Shown: positions 16,950-17,689 of the stretch, piece after piece
Position numbering within the stretch: position 1 is the first letter of the stretch
How the letters are laid out: each line of letters starts with the position of its first letter
DNA from: a virus
Virus record (IMG/VR): IMGVR_UViG_3300042503_001357
Span: 1-20,315 of that record
Length of the DNA: 20,315 nucleotides
Direction: 5' to 3' (one strand)
The notes under the pieces: model-generated
The model's input: only the letters and a program-made list of their open reading frames with translations
Databases searched by the model: none
Told to the model about the DNA's origin: nothing
Program-made: the position numbers and the translations under genes

Positions 16950-17369
16950 TCACCTCTTGGATGCCTTCTTCATCTGGGCCTCCTGCTGCTCGGCATGTTT
17001 GTTTACGATGCTAATCATGGTCAAGACTTTACTGATTGGTTGAACTTCCAGCCAGTCGATGGAGCTGTCCCAGCGTTGCTTACACAAGTGGTAAGATGCC
17101 TCCATCCAGTTCTCAACGGTCATTATTTTCTCAACCAGAAGCTCGTTAACAACCCAATCAAGCAATTTTCTGGCCTGAGGAACACTGAAGTCGTCCAGAG
17201 AAGAATCCTCTAGTGTTAACCTGCTCATAAGGGGAAGGATGCTTTCGTCCTTGCTTCTTAAAATCTGAGCAAGATAAAAATCCTTGGGGCAGAGTTCCCG
17301 GTAATGAACAGGAGGGTGATCGTCTATGAAGACCAAGTAGGTGAAGTCCTCCAGGTCTTCGACTCTTAG
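16950..17369 (-). CDS. Frameshift extension (T domain) of the tail assembly chaperone
   Basis: 139 codons readable in the -1 frame from the slippery site, beginning LRVEDLEDFTYLVFIDDH. The frame has no ATG near its beginning: the first possible start is a TTG at 17336, 11 nt after GGAGG. Two TGA codons close this frame just upstream of the slippery heptamer, so it is entered either by -1 frameshifting from the chaperone (giving about 246 aa) or by weak TTG initiation. In lambda and many other tailed phages the G and G-T products made this way guide tape measure protein folding and tube polymerisation. The C-terminus (NKHAEQQEAQMKKASKR) is basic and helical. Its stop codon overlaps the next gene's GTG. 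The sequence itself matches no family I can name; the assignment rests on architecture. Confidence 0.7.
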   Translation of the reverse strand, partial: LRVEDLEDFTYLVFIDDHPPVHYRELCPKDFYLAQILRSKDESILPLMSRLTLEDSSLDDFSVPQARKLLDWVVNELLVEKIMTVENWMEASYHLCKQRWDSSIDWLEVQPISKVLTMISIVNKHAEQQEAQMKKASKR

Positions 17370-17689
17370 TTTGGGTCCGAGTCGTCATCACCATTGGCTT
17401 TGGCGACGAGCTCGCTTAGTTTTCGGAAGTCCCGAACGCCAAGATCAAGAATTTCTTCGTAGGTGATTTTATCTTCACCGACGATGAGTCGCTCAATGAT
17501 TTTCATCCCTTTTTCCACGTCTCCGGCCTTGCTAAGGTCCTTCTCCATGAAAATAAGGTCCCGGCCGGTCATTTCCCGGATGGTGATTTTTCTGCCATCA
17601 GTCAATGTGACACTGAAAGTGGCCATAGGTTTTGCAGTTTTCTTGATTGCCGGTGTAGTTTCCACCGCGTCGTTGGAAATGGTCCTCAT
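17366..17689 (-). CDS. Tail assembly chaperone (G-type product)
   Basis: 107 aa from ATG 17689, 6 nt after the upstream TAA. A second ATG at 17626 (MATFSVTLTDGRK) is possible but has no better ribosome binding site. The core (about 24-95) is FSVTLTDGRKITIREMTGRD, LIFMEKDL, then KGMKIIERLIV and ITYEEILDLGVRDFRKLSEL. That is the strand-then-helices layout of phage tail assembly chaperones (Mu gp41/TAC-type families): a beta 'T-L-x-D-G-x-x-I-x-x-R-E-x-T-G-x-D' opening followed by 'L-x-x-x-D-x-x-x-L-x-x-L'. It ends in an acidic tail (NGDDDSDPN) whose last two codons form the slippery site. A tape measure gene normally follows within a few genes but is not in this window. Confidence 0.75.
   Translation of the reverse strand: MRTISNDAVETTPAIKKTAKPMATFSVTLTDGRKITIREMTGRDLIFMEKDLSKAGDVEKGMKIIERLIVGEDKITYEEILDLGVRDFRKLSELVAKANGDDDSDPN
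17369..17375 (-). other. Programmed -1 ribosomal frameshift site CCCAAAC
   Basis: On the minus strand the chaperone ends GAC-CCA-AAC-TAA, so the heptamer C-CCA-AAC fits the X-XXY-YYZ rule in the zero frame and lies directly before the stop. A one-base slip gives CCC-AAA and continues as CTA-AGA-GTC into a 139-codon open frame. The -1 frame is closed by TGA-TGA 12 nt upstream of the heptamer. Only about 18 nt are available for a shift, and the heptamer is inside it. Confidence 0.8.

Follow-up and report, generated by a model that had tools for sequence, protein, structure and literature searches.

In a myovirus with the cyanophages S-CBWM1 and S-TIM5 among its relatives, the tail assembly chaperone gene most probably contains a site of -1 programmed ribosomal frameshifting, for which we estimate a probability of about 0.92 from comparative sequence analysis. 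The window, by which the whole analysed stretch is meant (20,315 nucleotides, positions 1 to 20,315 of the IMG/VR record IMGVR_UViG_3300042503_001357), is, judging by its gene content, part of the genome of such a contractile-tailed phage. Its long structural ORFs are located on the minus strand and encode a Mu-type portal, the major capsid, tube and sheath proteins, a gp25-like baseplate protein, and a polymerase-like protein. The chaperone module follows the DNA polymerase gene and precedes the tail completion and sheath genes; the chaperone pair is not located beside a tape-measure gene.

The first ORF of the module is located at 17689-17366 (-) and encodes a protein of 107 aa, the predicted short form (“G”). 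Its last codons are GAC CCA AAC TAA, and the heptamer C CCA AAC (17375-17369) thus stands in the X_XXY_YYZ register of the zero frame, with the TAA stop codon (17368-17366) immediately 3' of it. Two consecutive stops, TGA TGA (17390-17385), close the -1 frame 9 nt 5' of the heptamer, and the stretch in which a slip is permitted is limited to the 18 nt that follow, CGA CTC GGA CCC AAA CTA. The extension (“T”) is read in the -1 frame from CTA at 17369 to the TGA at 16952-16950 (17369-16950 (-), 139 codons and a stop), and this frame has no start codon before codon 12. The predicted shifted product is 107 + 139 = 246 aa in length, with the junction ...DPN-LRVEDLEDF.... The first-pass annotation had described the C-CCA-AAC-TAA end, the upstream TGA-TGA, the slip stretch of about 18 nt and the heptamer at the stop with coordinates that match exactly, and the 139-codon open -1 frame without an ATG at the junction is indeed present in the window. 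The overlap of this frame with the next tail gene, which had also been claimed, depends on the start of that gene: it is 4 nt in length if the gene starts at GTG 16953 and is absent if the start is ATG 16947.

The 107 aa protein matches the Pfam family PF10109 (Phage_TAC_7, P2 E and Mu 41), although marginally, with 25.8 bits against a curated cut-off of 25; the match is found in 52 of 55 relatives of the protein (E <= 0.01). A weak similarity to the tail assembly chaperone PHROG 344 (E 0.0014) was found as well. Judging by these profile matches, the first ORF is a tail assembly chaperone of the P2 E/Mu 41 type. A search of the extension against Pfam and NCBIfam gave no match. The next gene (16953-16534 (-)) encodes a Phage_tail_S/tail completion (Neck1) protein (PF05069, E 8.9e-8; PHROG 26, E 6.6e-15).

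Two other features of the window can be mentioned. The tail sheath protein, which matches the tail sheath PHROGs 17610 and 23, is very large (1397 aa, 15694-11501 (-)), and its residues from about 924 to 998 match PHROGs that comprise tail-fibre proteins and other proteins of the virion, which suggests inserted repeats or decoration domains. The ORF at 4059-3397 (-) overlaps the end of the tail-tube gene, and its stretch YRATNTKTGRYYIGSA... resembles, by eye, a GIY-YIG homing endonuclease.

The motif CCCAAAC occurs three times in the window, while 3.86 occurrences are expected, so its presence by itself says nothing, and its weight comes from position and conservation. By chance, a sequence of the form XXXYYY, X and Y being different bases, would stand in one of the four registers open to a slip with a probability of about 0.9%. 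When IMG/VR was searched with each of the two ORFs, about 80 and 36 loci were obtained, and more distant loci came from further searches. The first collection of sites was picked by CCCAAA itself and hence was biased; its two CCCAAAT entries were rejected as chance matches within the extension. The second survey was motif-blind, the extension being found by profile homology alone, and gave 119 distinct junctions. The extension is in the -1 frame in 101 of them and in the +1 frame in 18, which make up the S-TIM5 group.

All 101 distinct -1-arranged junctions, that of the isolate S-CBWM1 (about 31% identity) included, keep CCCAAA followed by one more base, Z, which is C in 89 of them, A in ten and G in two; T was never seen at the slip site of these relatives. 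Conservation of the heptamer in related phages had been proposed as a check by the first-pass annotation, which considered its loss from relatives keeping both frames as evidence against the site; no relative of this kind occurs among the 101. None of the 18 junctions of the S-TIM5 group contains the heptamer. TAA or TGA occupies the position of the zero-frame stop in nearly all relatives, and in 7 of the 101 junctions the stop is one codon further 3', the heptamer being retained in all seven. In eight loci, a -1-frame stop is flush with the heptamer on its 5' side and the zero-frame stop is flush on its 3' side; therefore, a slip is possible there only on the heptamer. Phage records searched at the DNA level contained no match, and a scan of bacterial and archaeal genomes revealed no relative.

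Conservation of the site exceeds what the proteins require, and it falls inside the overlap of the zero and -1 frames. Codon statistics were calculated over 56 lineages below 80% nucleotide identity. The proline codon of the site is CCA in 56 of 56 lineages, compared with 28% elsewhere, and the asparagine codon is always AAC, compared with 63% elsewhere. For pairs of sequences with the same residue, the level of codon sharing is 1.00 at codons -1, 0 and +1, and from 0.17 to 0.6 in most other codons. The Z base changed at least six times on the tree, and every change altered a residue in both frames, while XXXYYY (CCCAAA) remained unchanged. Since the changes of Z alter residues, the T that would be synonymous in both frames is absent, and CCCAAA is fixed, the constraint appears to be on slippage and not on the protein.

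The nearest isolates are the Synechococcus phages S-CBWM1 and S-TIM5, the former being the closest with an identity of 31-34%. The S-CBWM1 genome (NC_048106) encodes a homologous pair, HOU61_gp118/gp117, with the same slip position, the heptamer CCCAAAA and a very strong downstream hairpin. The gene order is the same as in the window (polymerase, small ORF, chaperone, extension, tail completion), and the putative tape measure gene (90321-94568) is 42 kb away from the pair, which is located at 47.5-48.3 kb. The S-CBWM1 pair is annotated as two hypothetical proteins, and its junction CCCAAAATGA (locus L109, 5606-6402) contains both a slippery heptamer and an ATG, thus allowing frameshifting and a separate start alike. 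S-TIM5 and its IMG/VR relatives also encode a homologous two-protein pair (F417_gp147/gp148 in S-TIM5; locus L188, 49511-48737 (-)); however, unlike in the window, the +1 frame is used by the second gene, which has its own ATG and Shine-Dalgarno (SD) sequence, and there is no slippery heptamer. Loci L189-L212 are alike in this respect, with a conserved TTAGGATC-type (AGGA-type) SD. On an unrooted tree, the -1 and ATG groups are one change apart, separated by a long branch with a support of 98.

In a single sequence, such a frame break within a conserved protein pair could come from faulty sequencing or assembly, or from a frameshift mutation of recent origin. The frame is broken at the same base in the isolate S-CBWM1 and throughout the 101 distinct junctions, which come from many metagenomes, and this recurrence makes an artefact or a private mutation of one gene a negligible prospect. 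Transcriptional slippage would also join both frames, but it requires long homopolymers, namely A runs above 7 or T runs above 8 (PMC3711429), while the longest runs at the site are CCC and AAA, triplets that are both conserved together with their codon register; we consider this origin of the fused product highly improbable.

A more serious alternative is that two separate proteins are made, the extension starting by itself at the TTG of its codon 12 (17336-17334 (-)) or by termination-reinitiation at the junction. The TTG is preceded, 11 nt upstream, by GGAGG (17352-17348), a strong SD by calculation (anti-SD pairing of -9.3 kcal/mol), the S-TIM5 group makes its homologous pair from a separate ATG, and an ATG directly follows CCCAAA in S-CBWM1 and in locus L010. 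GTG or TTG at -1-frame codons 11-16 (17339-17322 in the window) occurs in 31 of 56 lineages, compared with 16 +/- 3 expected from codon usage, and this excess favours a separate start too; it may, however, result from stem pairing, or reflect internal initiation at a low level in some members, among them the window. Of the 56 lineages, only nine carry the codon-12 TTG itself, and 23 lack any start codon in codons 1-16. In none of the 101 junctions does the -1 frame have an ATG, GTG or TTG from its upstream stop to the heptamer, and 91 of them also lack these triplets in the first nine -1-frame codons. Homology of the extension begins at codon 1 in most relatives, its conserved ExxEDFTY stretch begins at codon 4, and in the AF2 model of the extension (pLDDT 92.5) the first strand comprises residues 2-5, so that conserved residues and a predicted beta strand would be lost from a product starting at the TTG. 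The first -1-frame codon, CTA in the window, is CTA in 64 of 101 junctions, and ATG, although one substitution away from the CTG class, is found in only two. Reinitiation, moreover, leaves the invariant CCCAAA unexplained. Independent synthesis of the extension is therefore unlikely to replace frameshifting, although the TTG, or a GTG/TTG within codons 11-16, may give rise to a further product at a lower level.

Under the frameshift reading, most ribosomes would stop at TAA and release the 107 aa chaperone. Some ribosomes whose P site holds CCA and whose A site holds AAC would slip back by one base to CCC AAA and continue with CTA AGA GTC..., giving the 246 aa protein that contains the short form and the extension. 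This tandem slip of tRNA-Pro and tRNA-Asn would occur at low frequency, the 246 aa form being the minority product and the 107 aa form the majority. If the two forms work as those of lambda G/GT and P2 E/E+E' do, the tape-measure protein would be coated by the short one, and the recruitment of tail-tube subunits would fall to the long one. We infer the slippage itself, its rate, its stimulation and the chaperone action from the observed anatomy and conservation of the junction. The claim of the first-pass annotation that a -1 shift on CCCAAAC joins the chaperone to a second domain gains support from the comparative evidence (101/101 junctions; PF10109). In E. coli, C_CCA_AAG belongs to the most slippery heptamers, and almost every X_XXZ_ZZN sequence is shifty when stimulators are given (PMC4066793). 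In the same bacterial data, AAC in the A site, a heterogeneous codon, is a weaker shifter than AAG (PMC4066793), which counts against the frameshift reading.

The slip rate would probably be boosted by the adjacent stop and, in many members, also by a stem-loop located 4-10 nt 3' of the heptamer. In the window, the candidate stimulatory stem-loop GAAGACC.TGGAGG...GGTCTTC (17360-17328 (-), about -14 kcal/mol) begins 8 nt after the heptamer. The fold signal was estimated by comparing the energies of single sequences with those of shuffled ones, including a codon-permutation null that keeps the protein. In the 66 nt 3' of the heptamer, the family mean z is -1.6 (codon permutation), with 54% of lineages below -1.5, and the bias drops to about -0.2 in the parts of the -1 frame that lie further 3'. 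Some fold bias, from about -0.4 to -1.3, is also present in the zero-frame ORF 5' of the heptamer, and the contrast is sharpest on the 3' side. The stem-loop of the window has a z of -3.12 with the codon-permutation null but an unremarkable z of -0.88 with the dinucleotide null. The same 5' arm pairs with different 3' arms across subgroups and lineages. No compensatory pair changes in the stem-loop were seen across the relatives compared, and RNAalifold found no common fold in the largest hairpin subgroup, probably due to the differing registers. Thus, the stem-loop present in many members, including the window, is a candidate stimulator. Both CCCAAAG junctions, which have the heptamer type that is strongest in E. 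coli (PMC4066793), are stemless (z of +0.8 and +1.5), which fits a tuning of the rate; however, there are only two such junctions, and they are close on the tree.

Two further observations concern the region upstream of the site. A second peak of fold bias is located family-wide in the zero-frame ORF, about 140 to 70 nt 5' of the heptamer, with a mean z of -1.9 with the dinucleotide null and about -0.9 to -1.2 with the codon null. Glutamate at codons -3/-2 before CCA (17383-17378 in the window) is encoded family-wide by GAA in 67 cases and by GAG in three, compared with a ratio of 281:187 elsewhere in the ORF (p about 1e-10); GAG seems to be avoided just 5' of the slip site. An upstream SD stimulator was considered but is not proposed, given the weak anti-SD pairing and this avoidance of GAG at codons -3/-2.

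The chaperone domain seems to be present a second time, in diverged form, within the extension (the whole module occupies 17689-16950 (-)). A comparison of the profiles of the zero-frame and extension families gave an E of 6.6e-5 with a probability of 64, and the predicted order of secondary-structure elements agrees between the zero-frame domain and the extension. The second protein of S-TIM5 (gp148) has 34% identity with the zero-frame protein (pairwise E 2e-6) and matches the extension family with an hhalign probability of 98 (E 1.7e-13); being similar to both domains, it bridges the zero-frame chaperone and the extension. A sequence search of solved structures with both domains found nothing, and a Foldseek search of the PDB with the -1 domain gave nothing convincing.

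Frameshifting in phage tail chaperone genes has long been known, and the present site is another case of it. In phage lambda, the -1 shift that gives gpGT from the gpG gene reportedly takes place on GGGAAAG. The window shares with this -1 frameshifted chaperone (reviewed in PMC5009743) a short chaperone ORF, an X_XXY_YYZ sequence near its end and a start-less -1 extension reading into the region of the next gene. It differs from lambda in the heptamer CCCAAA[C/A/G], the stop flush with it, the absence of a tape-measure neighbour and an extension resembling a second chaperone copy. The first-pass label of a lambda G/GT arrangement thus holds for the start-less second ORF and the -1 shift on another heptamer, but not for the location, which is away from the tape measure, or for the protein family, which is that of P2 E/Mu 41. 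With P2 gpE/E+E' (PF10109, together with Mu gp41), the window shares the family of the zero-frame domain, the contractile tail and a frameshifted extension. The slippery sequence of P2 is T-rich and differs from that of the window, whose 139-codon extension, moreover, has no Pfam match. TAC-N/TAC-NC proteins of the Pseudomonas phage Adele and of Vandenendeviridae and Andersonviridae phages have a predicted -1 shift on GTTTTT (PMC12846349); they resemble the present case in that the prediction is backed by family-wide conservation, whereas the motif is different and the phage group is unrelated. A literature search on frameshifting at CCCAAAC brought up no relevant paper, and an earlier report is possible. 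As cited in PMC12846349, Vladimirov et al. (2022) describe T4-like chaperones as made without frameshifting.

Taken as one family, these phages may share a tandem-duplicated chaperone with two modes of expression: a -1 fusion on CCCAAA+Z, its rate set by Z against the hairpin, in one branch, and two ATG-started proteins in the S-TIM5 branch, with junctions of the CCCAAAATGA type as in S-CBWM1 being possible intermediates. We hold this view tentatively, at somewhat less than even odds; if it is true, the fused long form would be a hybrid of the lambda frameshift scheme and the T4 scheme of duplicate genes. How phages pass from frameshifted to separate chaperone genes, or back, could be studied by comparing these phages with S-TIM5. 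The heptamer has an asparagine (AAC) A-site codon and is flush with the stop; in some members the slip window is just seven bases in length, so that nature provides there an unusually clean test of -1 slippage in bacteria. The site also identifies a chaperone pair and a hidden, predicted 246 aa product, both in S-CBWM1 and in uncultured phages of a widespread group.
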